The position numbers and the translations under genes were made by a program. A DNA stretch of 64,000 nucleotides from a virus. The notes under the pieces were generated by a model. It saw only the letters and a list, made by a program, of their open reading frames with translations, searched no databases and was not told where the DNA came from. Within the stretch, counting starts at the first letter, position 1. Every line of letters begins with the position of its first letter. The stretch lies in the IMG/VR virus record IMGVR_UViG_3300025133_006719, positions 1-64,000 of that record; one strand, written 5' to 3'. Of the stretch, positions 3-13,741 are shown piece by piece.

Positions 3-3000
3 CAAAAAGAGATTTCTGCTTCTACTAACTTTGTTGATTATAGAGAGAGGAAGCGATACTTTGACACCGCGTTCAAAGGAGGGGAAAAAGCATATTACCT
101 TGAAAACGCAGGTCATCGAAGACCTTTTGGGTACTCTAACAAAACCAAAAGTATAGGTAGCATCCCTGCGAATGAAGCTATCTACTTTTTAGGTAGACCA
201 ATAGTATACGAAAAAATTACTATAAACGAGTCTAATATAATAAGCGCCAGTTCAGGAGATATAATCTATGTATTTGGCGATGGATCATTAAAGTACGATA
301 AGAAAACAATTTACGCTACAAATCAATACGTTGCCGTATCCAGTAGCTTAAACCCCGCCAACTCTCCTAAGTTGATCCCTGCTGGCGCTATAGATTACGG
401 GACAAAAAAAATAAATACCTTAGGCGATCCTTACGACCTATCCACCACAAGCACGGTTATATCCCCGATCAGGAATGTGTTTGGATATACAGATTTCAGA
501 GCAACTAATAAAGATGAGATGTCCGTAAATGGGGAAATAATTAAAAACGATGGTTATAACGCAACATACGTATACAGAAAACTAAACAGCTCCGAACTCA
601 TTGAAGCTGAAAAGAGGTATTATGTATACGGAATGGGAGATTATGTGGAGTATAATGGTTATAGATATTATCCAAGGGGCTTAGGTAGGGCTGACATAAT
701 AGTAAGCGGAGGGAGTGATGACACTATTACGTATACAGATAGCACTAAAACTATTAATACCGACAGCACAAGTAGCAGCAACGACTTTAGCAGCATTCAA
801 GATGGGGATGTCTTTTGGGCGTCCTATCAAAAAAATTATGGGGGTTTGAACGACTACGGAGAGCAGATAGTCGTACCAGTAAAGGTGTATAGCAAAACCG
901 ATAGTCAGAACATAGTTTTAACTACTGAGTTACCGGAGGGGGTAGATATGACATCTTACGACAATCAGGAGACGACGTTGATTTTAAACCCCTACTTCCA
1001 AATTTCAGTACCAAGGGACCAGCCCAACTATTCTTCAAGGGGAGCGTTGGGCAAGACATCATCCACAGGTAATTTCAATTTTGGCGGCACAGCTAAGACT
1101 TCAAGATACCTAGTTAAGAGAAACATCCTATATAAAAAGGGCGCTAGCTGCTGTATAGAGATTGAGAAGATCGAAGATGACGTCGTAAGGCATTCCTCTA
1201 AGACTTACGCTTCCAAGTATGGCCACTCTTCAAGCCAGAAGATTCCTATAGGGTTTGTCTACGCCGTTAAAGGTAGAGGAGAAATAATATACCCTGTATG
1301 GCAGGGGGATAAGTCTGGAGATAGTAGTTACAGCTTGGTTTACGGTACGGGGGCTACTGCTTGGTATAGTCACGATACCCTGAGCAAAACCTTTAGGGCC
1401 GGATCTGTTTTCTCAGGTATTGAATCCTCTCCCGGGGGAGGAAGTCCGGCTAAATACTATTGGAAGACCAAAGGCACAGAAAGAGTCCATAAGATATCCA
1501 ACAGCTACGCCAAGCTAACAGAAAAAATAAACTCAATGGATCAATTCCTAGACGTTGCCCCTTCCAAATATGGGATCGACTCTGGGGAAGTAAGATACGA
1601 TGGAAGAGAATATGAAGTTCTGTGGATAGGTTCAGATGGGTTAGTGCAAAAAGAAGCTGGCGAAGGAAGCATAGAATACAACGGAAAGACAATTCAAGTC
1701 GGAGAAACTTTTAAGCCCGTAAAGATAGGTGACAAAGTCGTTAGCAAATTCAAGGCATCTGATAAAGGCAAAATCATAGTAAGACCAAAAGAAGGCATCT
1801 TAAATAAAGCCCCAGTTGGAGGTTGGTCAAACGAGTGGTCAATGTTTATAAACACAACCCACCACCATCCTTCTAGGACTTCTATGTGGCACCACGACTA
1901 TTACGGAGACATATTGTCATTCCTTAATAATAGATGCCATATAATGTCAGAAGACTTTAAGTTAAGGAAGTACGGGCACCTTTTAGAGACGTTCTCCTAT
2001 GGCAAGAAGCCTGTTATAAGGTCGGAAGCTCCTCCGGGCTACCAGTTCCTAGAGGGAAGCAATGCTGACGCTGCTTGGTACTGGTTCGGTTTAGACGGGG
2101 CTCAGGCCAATAAATGGTATTATAGTTCGTGTCAGATATACAAACCTGACTACCAGATAAGCTCGACCAAACAAAAGGATATTATAGATATACTACAGGA
2201 TAATAATTTAACATTAGGCTCTGTAACTGATGAGTTTGCTGGGGGAGTTTGTCAAGGAGCTAGCGAGTTTAGTAGTGAATCCGTTCAGAATTCAAGTCAA
2301 TTAGATCAAACTTCATGCGCTCTCAAAGGTGGCCGATGGATAACCTTAAAAGATCAAGTTATAGTCACTTTAGACAGAAGACTACAACACACTGAAAACA
2401 CAGACTGGAATAATAATAGGGGTATAAGTGTTCTCGAGTTTGCTCAAGGATACGGAGAAGCATGTAAAATATTTTGGGACAATATTAAAGACCCTGCAAA
2501 AGATCCGTACAGAACCGATGAGAATGCCCTGTTAGAATATTTAATCAGAGAAAATTACAACACAGGAAAACAAAGAGGGTATTGCAGTGGCGTAACCTCC
2601 GAAAGTGGCGCAATACAAACTGAGGAGCTTTGTCTCTCCAGAGGAGGAGAGTGGGTATCGTCGGGGGTCGAAGACGAAAACGGAAACATCCAAAACGAAA
2701 TAGTAAAACTCCAATGTCCTAAGGCTAGGATAGGTGACGCTGCCCCAGACACTTTTATTTGGCAATTGCCGGATGATCCGTTTGGAGCTTGTGAGCCTAG
2801 ATTCTACTTTAGCAAACACGTTCCGTATGTGTACGATGACGATTCAGTTGACGAACCTTGGGTCAAGACTCCCGTTACGGTAGATCCATTTATCCAAATG
2901 GAAACCTATTTAAGAGGGTTCTGCGGAGGATTTATAGACAAGAAGTCTGACCCCATAGCAGATGAAATTACACAGTATTTAAGCAAGAGCGGGGAGATGA

Positions 3001-5654
3001 AGCTCATCAATCAGACCTGTGCGAAGTCAAAAGACTACGACTACCTCTTTGAGAACTTAGCGTTTCAGTCTCTGGATCAGGCCGGTAACTCCAAGTCGAT
3101 ATTTAAAGATTATGACAAAGTTATTATTGAGAGAGATCAAAATGCTGTAGTTGAAAGAAGGGTGGACGTTTCTGGTTTAAAGACTCGGATGGGCGGCAAA
3201 GGATGGATTATATTCAGAAAATATAATGAAAAAATAGATGGCGAAGAAGAAGGGGCTTATGTTAAACTTGGAAGCTCTCCTTCCTACAAAGGGGTAAGGG
3301 TTGGAGCTCTAGTTAAGTCAGATAGCCTAGATGCATTTGGAAATGCTGGCCCAGAACTTTCTGAGTTTCACGATATTTACACAATTCCGTTAAAATTTGG
3401 GGAAACAATAGGTACAATAGAAAAAAACTACTCAACTGTATACTATACCGTGGAAACTTCCAACTTTTTTGACGGAGATGTAAACGGTACATTTACTATG
3501 AGGGCGGTACTCAGCCCAGAGGGAGACTTATCGGTAATAAAACATTATCAAAATCAAGCTACAATATCATTTACAGCAGATGAGTCCGCTAAATATTATG
3601 CTGTCGAATTTAAAAAAGCGGTATTACCTCATGAAACAGAATGGAAAATATACGGAAACGAGATAGTACCTAGAAAAGCTTATCTAGAACAGAAACAATC
3701 AAACCCCAAAATAACTCCGGCAGATAGACCTCCCGCTAACTACTTTGATTTAGTTGACGTCGACCTGACTGACAACCTTGATGATGATCCAGCTTACGCA
3801 GGATTAAAGAAAGAATATTCATTAAGATTACGCCCATTCTATAAGCAACTTACTGGCGGAGTTTGTAGCGAGACAGGTAAGACGACAAAGATTTCATGCC
3901 TCCGGGCTGGTGGAACTTGGACCCCATTCTCCGCTCATACCTCTGGAAATTTCAAAGAATCAGATAAGACGAGGAAAGTGGATGCTATTATTAAAGGCTA
4001 TCCAAGAAGAATCGAATTCAAAGAAAGCGGAAGCCCGGCGTTAATAATGTCTTCTGAAAATGGCATATTTACATTTAGGATAAAGAACCTATTCCCGGTA
4101 GCTTTTAATACGAAAACAAACTATAACAACATAGAATTAGAGACCATTTATATCAACGGCTCCCCAACCACAGTTAAGAAGTTATATTACGATATAGAAT
4201 ATAAAATAAAATATAGCTATGAGAAAGCCGCGGAAGACGATACAACAAACATAAGAAGAGGAGAATGGCAGAACCTAAAAACTTACCGAGATGTAAAGAA
4301 GGGGCAAGAGATAATATGCGTAGATGATAAAACATACGAATTTGAAACCATTAATTATAGAGTTGTAAAACTTGTATCAAGACCGGGTGGGTCAAGATGG
4401 ATAAGCCCGCTAAACCTTATAGACGAATTAACTAACTATCCTGATGACACAAAAGGCTTTGGCCCTCTGCCTAATATAACCTTAAGAGCTTCAATATTTA
4501 ATCAATTTGCAAATTCAATTAACCTATTAAATGAAGCTAGGGTAGACCTGCCAATCACAGTTAGGTATAGAGACCATGTAAAATTTGTCGCCAAGCCTTG
4601 CAAGACTGCTCCGTATGCAGATATAAGCATAACTAGAGGTGTTGCCCTAGCTGGGCTTAATGTACCTGCGCCCACCTTGGGCACTTGGGCTAGGACTGAG
4701 TTCACCATGCACGGATTCACTGGCGGCGCGGCGATGCACGCGGATAGGTATGAATTCGTCGATATTGACTGGGGAGCTAATACAATTATGCAAGATGGTT
4801 GGGGCCGCGATAGAACCTATGTATCAGAATGGTATGAGTCTTATGGGCACACATATTTTCAAGCAAACAAACACTATGGATTCTTAGGGGAACCGTTCAT
4901 TGGAGGCCAAGGCTTTGTAGCTCCGTCGGGTGCATGGGGTGTTGGGGGACAGACTCAAGACGTTGAAATATCAATAACTGGTAACCAAATAGCCTTCAAG
5001 TACGCTGTTCCGAGAATGTTGAGGAGCCGAATCAAATCTGACAATTTAGTCCTTAATGGCAGAATGGACTATTACAATAAGTGGCATCCGGGGATGAGGC
5101 ATCTGACGACGGAGTATGGAGCTATAGATGGTTTCAGTCCGAGAGTGCCTACTGTTCAGGGCGTCCAAAGCTATAATAGTGAGTTAACAGGGAATGCCGA
5201 ACCCTTAGACCTTCCTTCTTACTGTGGAACAGGTGAAGGGCCTATCAAATGGTATTTCTTAAATATGTCTCAGAGACATGGCGGGGACCGATATGTTATA
5301 TTTGAGGATCAGGCGGAAGAGTACTCTTATTGTTGGGATATGAAGGGCACTTTCATGTTAAAAGCTCCAGAACTTCGTGGCAGCTACTCTGGAATAATCA
5401 CAATCCCAATGGGTATAGAATATCAAGACCACTGCGGGAAGGGCGGTAGCGTCAGTGCTTTAGGTTTTGCTACTAACGCTTCAACTGGGGACAGCAATCT
5501 TAGGGTCGAGATTCCGGTAGTGGATAAGCTACTCTCTCTTGCCCACTGGAAGTACAAAGAAGTGGAAAAAAAGCCAGTAGAAAAGACAAAAACAGCCAAT
5601 AAAGATAATATAATAAAGAAGGACGAGCCAGATGTTGGCCGCGGTTCAGGATAA
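3..5654 (+). CDS. Giant virion-associated protein (5' end outside window)
   Basis: The reading frame is open from the first full codon at base 3 to a TAA at 5652-5654, so at least 1883 residues are encoded and the start lies upstream of the window; a TTG at 372 is only an internal codon. I recognise no named domain. Three similar short Cys/Trp modules, each of the form GxC...C-x4-5-GG-x-W, occur near bases 2240-2341, 2572-2655 and 3856-3921. The rest is rich in Tyr, Gly, Asn and Ser, as in tail fibre or tail-tip proteins, and the C-terminus is a charged Lys-rich tail. Size and composition suggest a structural tail or adhesin protein; that role is inferred. Confidence 0.75.
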   Translation, partial: QKEISASTNFVDYRERKRYFDTAFKGGEKAYYLENAGHRRPFGYSNKTKSIGSIPANEAIYFLGRPIVYEKITINESNIISASSGDIIYVFGDGSLKYDKKTIYATNQYVAVSSSLNPANSPKLIPAGAIDYGTKKINTLGDPYDLSTTSTVISPIRNVFGYTDFRATNKDEMSVNGEIIKNDGYNATYVYRKLNSSELIEAEKRYYVYGMGDYVEYNGYRYYPRGLGRADIIVSGGSDDTITYTDSTKTINTDSTSSSNDFSSIQDGDVFWASYQKNYGGLNDYGEQIVVPVKVYSKTDSQNIVLTTELPEGVDMTSYDNQETTLILNPYFQISVPRDQPNYSSRGALGKTSSTGNFNFGGTAKTSRYLVKRNILYKKGASCCIEIEKIEDDVVRHSSKTYASKYGHSSSQKIPIGFVYAVKGRGEIIYPVWQGDKSGDSSYSLVYGTGATAWYSHDTLSKTFRAGSVFSGIESSPGGGSPAKYYWKTKGTERVHKISNSYAKLTEKINSMDQFLDVAPSKYGIDSGEVRYDGREYEVLWIGSDGLVQKEAGEGSIEYNGKTIQVGETFKPVKIGDKVVSKFKASDKGKIIVRPKEGILNKAPVGGWSNEWSMFINTTHHHPSRTSMWHHDYYGDILSFLNNRCHIMSEDFKLRKYGHLLETFSYGKKPVIRSEAPPGYQFLEGSNADAAWYWFGLDGAQANKWYYSSCQIYKPDYQISSTKQKDIIDILQDNNLTLGSVTDEFAGGVCQGASEFSSESVQNSSQLDQTSCALKGGRWITLKDQVIVTLDRRLQHTENTDWNNNRGISVLEFAQGYGEACKIFWDNIKDPAKDPYRTDENALLEYLIRENYNTGKQRGYCSGVTSESGAIQTEELCLSRGGEWVSSGVEDENGNIQNEIVKLQCPKARIGDAAPDTFIWQLPDDPFGACEPRFYFSKHVPYVYDDDSVDEPWVKTPVTVDPFIQMETYLRGFCGGFIDKKSDPIADEITQYLSKSGEMKLINQTCAKSKDYDYLFENLAFQSLDQAGNSKSIFKDYDKVIIERDQNAVVERRVDVSGLKTRMGGKGWIIFRKYNEKIDGEEEGAYVKLGSSPSYKGVRVGALVKSDSLDAFGNAGPELSEFHDIYTIPLKFGETIGTIEKNYSTVYYTVETSNFFDGDVNGTFTMRAVLSPEGDLSVIKHYQNQATISFTADESAKYYAVEFKKAVLPHETEWKIYGNEIVPRKAYLEQKQSNPKITPADRPPANYFDLVDVDLTDNLDDDPAYAGLKKEYSLRLRPFYKQLTGGVCSETGKTTKISCLRAGGTWTPFSAHTSGNFKESDKTRKVDAIIKGYPRRIEFKESGSPALIMSSENGIFTFRIKNLFPVAFNTKTNYNNIELETIYINGSPTTVKKLYYDIEYKIKYSYEKAAEDDTTNIRRGEWQNLKTYRDVKKGQEIICVDDKTYEFETINYRVVKLVSRPGGSRWISPLNLIDELTNYPDDTKGFGPLPNITLRASIFNQFANSINLLNEARVDLPITVRYRDHVKFVAKPCKTAPYADISITRGVALAGLNVPAPTLGTWARTEFTMHGFTGGAAMHADRYEFVDIDWGANTIMQDGWGRDRTYVSEWYESYGHTYFQANKHYGFLGEPFIGGQGFVAPSGAWGVGGQTQDVEISITGNQIAFKYAVPRMLRSRIKSDNLVLNGRMDYYNKWHPGMRHLTTEYGAIDGFSPRVPTVQGVQSYNSELTGNAEPLDLPSYCGTGEGPIKWYFLNMSQRHGGDRYVIFEDQAEEYSYCWDMKGTFMLKAPELRGSYSGIITIPMGIEYQDHCGKGGSVSALGFATNASTGDSNLRVEIPVVDKLLSLAHWKYKEVEKKPVEKTKTANKDNIIKKDEPDVGRGSG

Positions 5655-7773: not shown

Positions 7774-8420
7774 TTTAAGATGAATTTTTCTACAAAAGCT
7801 TGGGCTGCTGGCTTTAAGTACGAAGCTTGAAGGGAAGCGTCTCCTTTACAGTCCGGCCATTCAATACATACGTCAGCTTTCTTCCTGAGTTTTGGGTCAT
7901 TAATCGCTTCTTGTTTGTTCGCGGGTGTTTCGTAGACGTATGTTTGGCTTAGGTTATCGTCGTAATATAGATTCTTTTTTCTCAAATGAACCAGTATCCC
8001 TTCTGTCTTGTTTTTAATCCAGTAACATTCATCTTTCTTGTATTTGTCATACCTAATGTCTGTTACAAAGCATACGGGATTGGGGACTCCATGTACAGCA
8101 CAATTGTCAGAAAGTTCTTTTATTTTGATATCAGCTCTAGATGTCCAATGTTGACCTTGACTGTCTAACCTCTTCACTAATCCGTAAAACACCAAGAAGT
8201 CTCGTATCTTGGATTTTTGTTCTCTGTTACATTTCGTTGGGTCTATGTTAAACAGTTCTAGTGAGGCTTTTTTGCATTCTTCTTTTAATTCGTTTGCTAA
8301 AGCTACTTGGCATGGGTTGAAACCCTTAAGTAGAAGCTCTTTCCGACATAGCTCATAAAACAGATCTTTGCCGGAACCGGCTAATCCAGATATGCCTACA
8401 ACTTTCATTTGATTACTCAT
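7770..8420 (-). CDS. P-loop kinase, deoxynucleoside monophosphate kinase-like
   Basis: This 216-residue protein opens with a Walker A motif, GLAGSGKD, at residues 11-18, in the N-terminal layout of phage dNMP kinases and other small P-loop kinases. A DIRY motif near residue 120 fits the second half of the family. It would phosphorylate dNMPs to dNDPs for phage DNA synthesis, consistent with dCMP deaminase, ThyX, dUTPase and ribonucleotide reductase elsewhere in the window. Its start overlaps the end of the sigma gene by 8 bp. Substrate specificity is inferred. Confidence 0.7.
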   Translation of the reverse strand: MSNQMKVVGISGLAGSGKDLFYELCRKELLLKGFNPCQVALANELKEECKKASLELFNIDPTKCNREQKSKIRDFLVFYGLVKRLDSQGQHWTSRADIKIKELSDNCAVHGVPNPVCFVTDIRYDKYKKDECYWIKNKTEGILVHLRKKNLYYDDNLSQTYVYETPANKQEAINDPKLRKKADVCIEWPDCKGDASLQASYLKPAAQAFVEKFILK

Positions 8421-9036
8421 CCGTTAGGTTTAACAGTATCTCTTTCGCCCTTTTCCTTGCGTAAAACAGTCTGGTACAGACCGTCGGATACGGACAATTT
8501 ATCCTAACTGATATCTCGGAGCAAGAAAGATCTTCGACTTCTCTCATTTTTAAGACTTGTTGATGGCTCTTGGAAAGCATTGATATAGCTTTGGTGAGTT
8601 TGAAGGAGAGTTCTTTTAAGTTTGTTTTTCTATGTGGGTCCGCTGCAACTAACCCAAGTTTTAGGTCTATATCCTTGCCGTTATACCCGTGTTGCTCGGA
8701 ATATTTTGTCTTCATCCCTTCTATCGAGACCTCTTTTCTATGCTTCCTTTTGTGGTCGTAGTAAGCATTGTGGGCTATTCGGTTAATCCAAGAGAGGAAT
8801 TTTGAGTTACCTTTGTACTTGTTTATGTTGTTCCAAGCTTTAATCAAGGCTATCTGCAGAACCTCTTCCGCCGCCGTGGGGTCTTTAAACTTAGCTATTA
8901 GGTAGCATTTGATCTTTTTCATACACCTGCTTGCTAGTTCGTCAAACGCTTTTGTATCTGAGCTTTTTTGACACAGGTCTATGAGTTCCTCCTCTGTATA
9001 AGAGCGATATGCGTTCACCGCGGTATAATCTATCAT
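8413..9036 (-). CDS. ECF-like RNA polymerase sigma factor
   Basis: This protein of about 207 residues has a clear sigma-70 family region 2 (AFDELASR, AAEEVLQIALIKAWNNI, SWINRIAHNAYYDHKR) and region 4 (QQVLKMREVEDLSCSEIS, then a helix-turn-helix ending in ARKRAKEIL). Length and spacing match ECF sigma factors, which redirect host RNA polymerase. I chose the ATG at 9036. A TTG at 9054 would extend it, but that TTG is the -35 of a good promoter, from which a leaderless transcript would begin near the GTG at 9018. The start is therefore open among these three. It shares an operon with the kinase and an oxygenase. Confidence 0.85.
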   Translation of the reverse strand: MIDYTAVNAYRSYTEEELIDLCQKSSDTKAFDELASRCMKKIKCYLIAKFKDPTAAEEVLQIALIKAWNNINKYKGNSKFLSWINRIAHNAYYDHKRKHRKEVSIEGMKTKYSEQHGYNGKDIDLKLGLVAADPHRKTNLKELSFKLTKAISMLSKSHQQVLKMREVEDLSCSEISVRINCPYPTVCTRLFYARKRAKEILLNLTDE

Positions 9037-9054
9037 AGTTTTGATGATTGTCAA
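9027..9054 (-). promoter_or_regulatory. Sigma70-like promoter for the ECF sigma operon
   Basis: On the minus strand TTGACA (9054-9049), a 16 bp spacer, then TAGATT (9032-9027). The GTG at 9018 lies eight bases after the -10, a spacing that would give a nearly leaderless message. Confidence 0.5.
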
Positions 9055-11863: not shown

Positions 11864-12265
11864 ATGACTGGATTAGAGGCAACTTCAGAACTTTTTAAAT
11901 TCTTTAGTGAAAATGATTATTTTGAGATGGGGGAGCATTTTAGTAGCGTTATTCTCATCTCTGATAAAAGGGAGATTGAAGAAGCCTGTTTGGATCTGGG
12001 GTTAGCGGAGCTGGGGGAAATGGGAGTCATCTCCAAAATAACAAAAAAGGATAAGGATTATTGGATTCTGAAGAAACCTTTGACGCACTACGATCAGAAG
12101 GTAGAACTTGGTGCAAGTACCGCTATGGGGGTATCAGTTGTTCTTAATGAAATATGTGATCAGTTAGAAAACACTGAAGATAAGTGTGATCCATTGAGTA
12201 TTAGTGATAGAGATATAAACAACCTTGTATCTGTTGCGAGCAAAATGATTGAAAAAAAGGGTTGA
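11864..12265 (+). CDS. Unknown acidic phage protein divergent from dCMP deaminase
   Basis: A 133-residue acidic protein, start placed at the ATG at 11864 (MTGLEATSEL) because an earlier ATG at 11828 would lie inside the divergent promoter; TATTAT stands six bases before 11864. A TxMGVSVVLNEICDQLEN helix and an acidic C-terminal helix are visible. No family recognised. Its TGA stop lies within the -35 of the promoter for the structured RNA. Confidence 0.6.
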   Translation: MTGLEATSELFKFFSENDYFEMGEHFSSVILISDKREIEEACLDLGLAELGEMGVISKITKKDKDYWILKKPLTHYDQKVELGASTAMGVSVVLNEICDQLENTEDKCDPLSISDRDINNLVSVASKMIEKKG

Positions 12266-12290
12266 CAAATTTGCCCCGCGATGAGAGAAA
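12262..12290 (+). promoter_or_regulatory. CCCC-type phage promoter for the structured RNA
   Basis: TTGACA at 12262-12267, spacer of 17 containing GCCCCG at 12273-12278, then a poor -10 (GAGAAA). The spacer motif matches seven other promoters in the window. The -35 overlaps the upstream stop codon. Confidence 0.55.
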
Positions 12291-12668
12291 GGTTTCTGTT
12301 CTTTGAGTAGCGGTAAATAGCGTGTTTAGGGGAAACCTAAACAAAACACATTAGAGACCTCAGGTCCGTAAAAAGACGCCAGACGAATAAGCTTAATAAG
12401 CTTAGAGTTATTTCGGAAAAACGCGGCTTCATAGTCTGGAAAAGCAAGTATACCAATTAGTGAAAGGGGGAAAGCTGACAGTCCTAAAAAAAGTCCTACC
12501 GCTTAAGCAAAGACATACATAGCAATCCTTGGTTGCGAGCTAGGCTGAAAAGAAATGGCCGATGCGCTGGACTGAAGTGGGTAGGGATTGATTACTAATT
12601 AGGGTTAAACTCCCAAGAGGACTGTTGTGCCCAATAGTTCTGGAGGGAAAAGCTTCCAGTCGTTTTCG
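12291..12668 (+). ncRNA. Candidate structured noncoding RNA, about 380 nt
   Basis: No sensible ORF exists from 12266 to 12763, yet the first 400 bases are GC-balanced and full of pairings. Visible helices are 12324-12330 with 12336-12342 (loop GGAAA), CCAGAC 12379-12384 with GTCTGG 12434-12439, a long-range pair ACAGTCCT 12478-12485 with AGGACTGT 12618-12625 extendable by two G-U pairs, and CAATCC 12523-12528 with GGATTG 12585-12590. GGG-TTAAACT-CCC at 12602-12614 resembles a T-arm. A stem at 12640-12659 followed by a T-rich run looks like a terminator. It has a CCCC-type promoter. I could not assign it to tmRNA, RNase P RNA or a group I intron. The AT-rich stretch 12669-12763 holds only the leader of the next gene. 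Confidence 0.6.
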
Positions 12669-12763
12669 TCTCTAGCGCTTCTTCTTCTTTGTATATTCTT
12701 TGTATGTACAATCTTTCGTCATGAATTAGTTCTTATTTAGTTTCGTTTATTATCTAAGGGCAT

Positions 12764-13378
12764 ATGCAAGTCATTGATGATAAACATCTTATAAAGAAAG
12801 TTAAGGAATATTCATGCAGCCCTAGCTTAGTAGAGTTAATCTCTCGTCACTCTGGTATTTGTTATAAAATATTTTCCAAATTCATTAATTCTTTAGAGGA
12901 TAGAGGTAGGGATTACAACGAACTGGTATCAAATAAGGATTATTTTATTTACTTAGCTGTTATGTCTTTTAAAGAAGACAGGAATACATTGTTTTCGACT
13001 TGGCTGGGTAATTACATAAGATATAAATGTTTAGACTTCTTGAATGAAAACAAGCTAAACTATGTCCACCAGATAGACGAGAATCAAAAGAATAATTTTA
13101 TAAATAATAACTCTTCTTTTAAATACAATGAATCCAAAGCATTAAAAGATACCAAAGACTCTCTCTTTGATTTGTTATCACAGTTAAAAGACAGCAGGGT
13201 TAGAAGAGTGTACCATATGAGATATTTTACAAACCACCCCAAAATGACATGGAAAAAGATAGGGGAGAATATGGGTGTTAGCGCTCAAACCGCCATAAAC
13301 CTCCACGAAAAAGGTAAAAAAATAATAGTTTCCAGACTTTACAAAAAAAAGCTTGACGCACCTGCCCCGACGTGTTAA
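12764..13378 (+). CDS. Second sigma-70-like factor
   Basis: A 204-residue protein with a region 2-like segment (YLAVMSFKEDRNTLFSTWLG then IRYKCLDFLNENK) and a region 4-like helix-turn-helix (MTWKKIGENMGVSAQTAINL) near the C-terminus. Layout and length fit a divergent phage sigma factor. It follows the structured RNA, and its stop codon overlaps the -10 of the next promoter. As with T4 gp55 it could direct late transcription, possibly from the GTGTAAT sites; that link is inferred. Confidence 0.75.
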   Translation: MQVIDDKHLIKKVKEYSCSPSLVELISRHSGICYKIFSKFINSLEDRGRDYNELVSNKDYFIYLAVMSFKEDRNTLFSTWLGNYIRYKCLDFLNENKLNYVHQIDENQKNNFINNNSSFKYNESKALKDTKDSLFDLLSQLKDSRVRRVYHMRYFTNHPKMTWKKIGENMGVSAQTAINLHEKGKKIIVSRLYKKKLDAPAPTC

Positions 13379-13686: not shown

Positions 13687-13716
13687 GACAGCTCTTGTTC
13701 ATATGTGCTAGCGCAG

Positions 13717-13741
13717 CCGTCCCTCGGGACGGTTTTTTTTT
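13717..13741 (+). terminator. Intrinsic terminator
   Basis: CCGTCC-CTCG-GGACGG followed by nine T residues. Confidence 0.9.

Follow-up and report, generated by a model that had tools for sequence, protein, structure and literature searches.

The stretch of DNA analysed here, termed the window, comprises 64,000 nucleotides of an uncultured phage (positions 1 to 64,000 of IMG/VR record IMGVR_UViG_3300025133_006719). Between a small gene ending at 12265 and a sigma-like gene starting at 12764 lie 498 gene-free bases (12266-12763), in which the phage, judging from its sequence, carries a noncoding RNA gene of ~370 bases. The locus is arranged as follows, the 5′ end of the RNA being placed by promoter spacing and its 3′ end by a terminator-like stem.

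11864-12265, plus strand: upstream small gene, predicted winged helix, adjoining the RNA in nearly all loci of families A and D (see below)
12262-12290, plus strand: putative promoter, with -35 TTGACA at 12262-12267, CCCC in the 17-nt spacer and a weak -10 GAGAAA at 12285-12290
12297-12665, plus strand: predicted RNA
12764-13378, plus strand: downstream sigma-like gene, with 188 relatives in viral contigs

The upstream small protein, conserved in the phage group, matches no Pfam or PHROG family, and its predicted structure (pLDDT 92) gave weak Foldseek matches, mostly to winged-helix proteins. Among 50,697 named phage records, nothing convincingly related to the sigma-like gene at 12764-13378 was found (best E=0.1); this gene is one of two different sigma-like genes in the phage, the other lying at 8413-9054 on the minus strand. 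Elsewhere on the plus strand of the window, an intrinsic terminator of 8 bp with a long T-run (13715-13734) follows a DUF736-like gene, and a 1760-aa ORF (372-5654) has no PHROG match at E<=0.001.

No plus-strand ORF of at least 30 aa occurs within 12297-12626, and all 21 aligned family A members contain 4-12 stops in every plus frame. The gap is thus noncoding, as the sequence-only reading had held. The single-sequence folding energy of the gap is no better than that of shuffles (z -0.31); the evidence for an RNA is comparative. The CCCC-type promoter proposed in front of it proved to be a motif that truly recurs in this genome, with TTGAC-N5-7-TGCCCC occurring three times in the window against 0.08 expected, but at the RNA itself a perfect -35 at 12262 is coupled to a poor -10, GAGAAA. 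Sites of a looser type (TTGAC, CCCC in the spacer, TAnnnT ~17 nt on) are found on the plus strand at 13353, 26485, 30903, 39982, 46167 and 57965. Most family A homologues display TTGAC or TTGC and, after ~17 nt, a TAnnnT-like -10 at a constant distance from GTTCTTTG; the -10 of this sigma-70-like promoter ends ~7 nt before GTTCTTTG, and the RNA is therefore expected to start near 12297.

Family A, to which the RNA of the window belongs, comprises ~25 distinct members (window included) in related uncultured phages. Related loci were reached via the DNA polymerase of the phage (76 loci) and through an alignment of the sigma-like protein (a further 80); the window RNA was located in more contigs by iterated nhmmer, and others were added by two core DNA patterns. 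Matches in homologues found by nhmmer span most of the RNA length. A blastn search of the gap against the DNA-polymerase-derived records revealed one real distant match, in G046; there a homologue of the upstream gene precedes the RNA, and a dNMP kinase gene and then the sigma-like gene come after it. This slot, with the small winged-helix gene before the RNA and the dNMP kinase and sigma-like genes behind it, is shared by nearly all family A members; the pattern scans ignored synteny, and still nearly all their matches with enough flank display the same gene neighbourhood. The closest contig, 99.85% identical, was of no use for covariation.

Against named phages blastn returned chance matches only, with no match in 50,697 records, and a pattern scan of bacterial and archaeal genomes yielded six matches, of which none was a convincing homologue when scored with the family A HMM (best E 0.03). 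The covariance model used was that of the core (106 positions) rather than of the full length; it has a single match in the window's own record (E=1.3e-21), the window having been in the training set. Many related phages have the slot without the RNA, which is thus dispensable for the phage group. In related contigs with an empty slot, the core model found no convincing match elsewhere in the record, although these contigs are fragments and absence is unproven. A strict partnership between the RNA and the upstream small gene was rejected: families B and E lack this gene, and many phages have the gene without the RNA.

Alignment A2, of 21 family A sequences, reveals a core of nine helices (51 pairs) with three pseudoknots, whose main elements, together with the flanking conserved motif, are located in the window as follows.

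12298-12305, plus strand: 5′ motif GUUCUUUG, conserved in A2
12310-12315, plus strand: 5′ strand of S1, pairing with 12497-12502; 95% paired, two-sided changes in 4 of 6 pairs
12320-12323, plus strand: 5′ strand of S2, a pseudoknot with 12421-12424; 100% paired in A2, two-sided changes in 2 of 4 pairs
12324-12342, plus strand: hairpin GUUUAGG-GGAAA-CCUAAAC, varying among homologues, poorly aligned in A2 and 53% paired as aligned
12351-12377, plus strand: segment UUAGAGACCUCAGGUCCGUAAAAAGAC of 27 nt, nearly invariant and left unpaired by the model
12379-12439, plus strand: three-way element in which S3 encloses hairpin S4 and S5
12379-12384/12434-12439, plus strand: S3; two-sided changes in 6 of 6 pairs
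12388-12392/12400-12404, plus strand: hairpin S4, loop UUAAUAA; two-sided changes in 5 of 5 pairs
12405-12409/12425-12429, plus strand: S5, inside S3
12492-12502, plus strand: pseudoknot junction, the S6 5′ strand AGUCC followed directly by the S1 3′ strand UACCGC
AGUCC with 12569-12573, plus strand: S6; 100% paired, two-sided changes in 2 of 5 pairs
12523-12531, plus strand: 5′ strand of S7, pairing with 12582-12590 and crossing S6 (third pseudoknot); two-sided changes in 8 of 9 pairs
12543-12560, plus strand: hairpin S8, GGCU/GGCC; 100% paired in A2
12569-12590, plus strand: 3′ strands of S6 (12569-12573) and S7 (12582-12590)

In this topology S6 crosses S1, S5 crosses S2 and S7 crosses S6, and the 5′ strand of S6 abuts the 3′ strand of S1. 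Pairing in A2 is 91.7% canonical against 27-47% in slid controls, two-sided changes occur in 35 of the 51 pairs and none of 500 shuffles reaches any of five measures, the structure having been read off A2 itself so that these shuffle and slide controls are not blind. A fairer test is provided by four members found after the structure had been derived from A2: aligned without the structure, they alone fit it in 146 of 176 cells (83%). All 25 sequences together are 94.5% canonical over the 44 pairs counted. Under an R-scape-like, tree-based null, the seven best column pairs include five that are canonical with two-sided changes, and one of the other two neighbours such a pair; pair 12390/12402 of S4 has an E of 0.017. 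The stems richest in covariation are S7, S3, S4, S1, S5, S6 and S2. Compensatory base changes, the general mark of a structured RNA, thus lie above controls and point to selection at the RNA level on this core. Covariation had been named as one check; it is strong, though mainly in helices other than those first proposed, the most informative (12310/12502, 12379/12439, 12388/12404, 12492/12573 and 12523/12590) being absent from the earlier list.

A direct repeat of 13-20 nt, with one copy in the core, midway along the RNA, and one at the 3′ end, characterises the 3′ module.

12467-12483, plus strand: copy 1 of the direct repeat, GGGGAAAGCUGACAGUC
12617-12632, plus strand: U strand, which can pair with copy 1 (-19.3 kcal/mol) or copy 2 (-13.8 kcal/mol)
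12640-12661, plus strand: terminator-like stem CUGGAGG-GAAAAG-CUUCCAG, overlapping copy 2 (12645-12661) and followed by the tail UCGUUUUCGU

The repeat sequence varies between lineages and agrees within each RNA, as exemplified by AAAGGATAAGCAGTCA in L224, AAAGGCTGACAGTCAA in L204, GAAAGCTGGGAGTCA in L172 and AAAGGCGATGGCTGT in L315. Own tails score 117 in family A against 68 ± 9 for swapped tails (p<5e-5), 161 against 92 ± 9 when more members are included, and 153 against 109 ± 6 in family D (p<5e-5). For the four later-found members alone, four rows including two close relatives, the test is not significant (p=0.08); each carries an exact or near-exact repeat of 13-18 nt. No repeat was seen in L234.

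When own and swapped partners of the U strand were compared in family A, pairing was more clearly supported for copy 1 (p=0.0065) than for copy 2 (p=0.043), while the exchange is weak in family D (p=0.023 and 0.12). The 8-bp long-range helix of the sequence-only reading (12478-12485/12618-12625) is the form that pairing of U with copy 1 takes in this phage. It is present in the window, but as a plain fixed helix it is 72% paired, is matched by shuffles and receives no covariation support; it was rejected in favour of flexible pairing of 12617-12632 with 12467-12485, to which the p of 0.0065 applies. The U strand and the two repeats would thus constitute a strand-exchange module, with a purpose considered below. 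The 7-bp terminator-like stem noted at 12640-12659 exists, but as a terminator it is weakly evidenced, with two such sites in the window against 1.4 expected, and its T-run is broken. Terminators are strong in most family D members, family E has one, and most family A members have none that is convincing. A T-arm-like hairpin, GGG-TTAAACT-CCC (12602-12614), turned out to be window-specific, in a region that cannot be aligned among homologues, and ARAGORN found no tmRNA in the window or 18 homologous loci; the suggested tRNA-like 3′ domain is accordingly not supported. Just after copy 2, L199, L198, L232 and their relatives conserve an extended -10-like sequence, GATTGTTAnAATTTAAA, a candidate dNMP kinase promoter.

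A search of Rfam covariance models revealed only one tRNA in the window, outside the gap; within the gap no match at E<=10 was meaningful, nor was any in homologous loci at E<=2-3; the GOLLD, ROOL, OLE, RNase P and group I models gave no match. The noted resemblance to tmRNA and RNase P RNA is one of length only, with no tRNA-like domain, conserved tag frame or model match. In open-licence papers, searched with few terms, there is no description of this RNA, the nearest in kind being GOLLD, ROOL and OLE. GOLLD and ROOL are large, phage-encoded RNAs with several pseudoknots and can adjoin tRNA genes, GOLLD having an elaborate structure and lying near such genes in some cases (PMC12286853). The present RNA shares the general character of GOLLD and ROOL, which is also found in prophages, but at ~370 nt it is shorter than GOLLD (>800 nt, in tRNA islands) and ROOL (~660 nt, often near tRNA islands), and its slot adjoins dNMP kinase and sigma genes. 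OLE is likewise a large, ornate bacterial RNA, but of ~600 nt, mostly in Bacillota chromosomes and with known protein partners. GOLLD is not known to carry lineage-specific direct repeats. Among 18 family A loci, one has a tRNA directly downstream, several have clusters a few kb away and most have none in the stretch covered; the tRNA-Gly gene immediately 3′ of the RNA lies at L204:1938-2013. With homologues noncoding, covariation strong and Rfam silent, none of the computational findings that could have overturned the proposal of an unassigned structured phage RNA with its own promoter was obtained, and the RNA almost certainly represents a genuine class of structured RNA that Rfam lacks. As far as the tools used reach, it is an undescribed class of large phage RNA.

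Other RNAs of ~380 nt (families B/C, D and E) occupy the same slot. Sixteen aligned family D members (for example L222:1275-1650, L161:1604-1984 and L219:297-696) have their own direct repeats, their three best pairs exceed all 60 null sets, and a strong terminator hairpin follows the RNA in most. In L197, L219 and L260, of family D, the next gene is convergent, and L164, L196 and L176 show other gene arrangements; RNA and repeats are kept. The family E RNA ends in a hairpin with a T-rich tail; the family A core model, containing no E sequence, matches E (E-values 4.7e-7 to 3.6e-5), and families A and E are thus homologous. The purine motif ARGGAAAAG is twice repeated in families A-D. Families B/C, at L223:1594-1923 and L138:2521-2825 (minus strand), contain two or more copies of AGGGAAAAG or AAGGGAAGT, and an unclassified RNA-like gap occupies the slot at L185:1832-2301. 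Families A, B/C and D have slot, size and doubled purine motif in common and could possibly share an origin.

An RNA that stands alone and acts in trans is preferred here to a cis-acting leader, and we give this trans-acting mechanism an even chance of being right. Host-type RNA polymerase would transcribe the RNA from its own promoter, and the product would fold compactly and act as a separate molecule. The two repeats would most likely present one binding element twice, to a phage or host partner that evolves fast or to a second molecule of the RNA, with U pairing to copy 1 or copy 2 deciding which repeat stays exposed; family A transcripts may in addition extend into the dNMP kinase and sigma genes. 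The stand-alone reading is preferred because in family D both the RNA and its repeats persist where the next gene is convergent, leaving nothing to lead. For family A, however, a leader of the dNMP kinase/sigma operon is a serious rival, in which the mutually exclusive 3′ pairings would serve as an expression platform sensing a ligand, a protein or the state of RNA polymerase. Wherever the flank is long enough, family A RNAs head dNMP kinase and/or sigma genes, mostly only 30-90 nt away, and most members lack a convincing terminator, which fits a leader equally well; in family D the terminator stands between copy 1 and copy 2, like an attenuator. Against this, the convergent and otherwise rearranged loci retain RNA and repeats, what lies downstream varies (a dNMP kinase or sigma gene or, in L204, tRNA-Gly) and in one A subclade the TGnTAnAAT-like extended -10 after copy 2 may give the kinase its own promoter, so that overall a leader is possible rather than probable.

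As one variant of the trans-acting mechanism, the RNA could swap U/copy pairings between molecules and build homo-oligomers of the GOLLD/ROOL type, possibly a cage or scaffold, as repeats pairing with one strand would permit domain swapping and the RNA is, like GOLLD and ROOL, phage-encoded, large, multiply pseudoknotted and once next to a tRNA gene (PMC12286853). Such an RNA-only assembly is unlikely given the lack of similarity to the GOLLD, ROOL or OLE models, the length of ~370 nt against 659 and over 800, and a usual location outside tRNA islands. A very divergent tmRNA, RNase P RNA or group I-type core is more improbable still. Besides size, the order of S6 and S1 resembles P7/P3 of group I introns, the only likeness to them, and E. 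coli tmRNA also contains CGUAAAAAG; yet the RNA is intergenic, with its own promoter at the 5′ end and no recognisable exons or interrupted gene, and neither Rfam nor ARAGORN recognises it. The tmRNA idea, built on CGUAAAAAG and UAAUAA with an anticodon-like YUAAUAA loop, failed as this loop is GAAA in L313 and L315. Chance structure in a spacer, which ordinary folding energy and a weak terminator might suggest, is refuted by the shuffle and slide controls and has next to no likelihood in view of the covariation, the fit of the later-found members and a core kept between distant phages.

Extending the stand-alone reading beyond family A is less likely than not to be right: a new phage RNA superfamily (A/E, B/C and D), with little sequence similarity, might work as a stand-alone RNA machine that is switched by exchange among three strands and whose repeats evolve in concert, both recognising one fast-changing partner. 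What is new is the RNA class, which has no detectable relative in Rfam or named phages; newness is not claimed for its function, and large structured phage RNAs are already known as a broad kind. Only a few large RNAs with multiple pseudoknots are known, and each of them (RNase P RNA, group I and II introns, tmRNA, GOLLD, ROOL and OLE) has either opened a field or remains an open question. The present RNA occurs in ~25 phages of one group and has a size suited to probing, cryo-EM and genetics, and its 3′ module, in which lineage-specific repeats would compete for one strand, is open to direct test.
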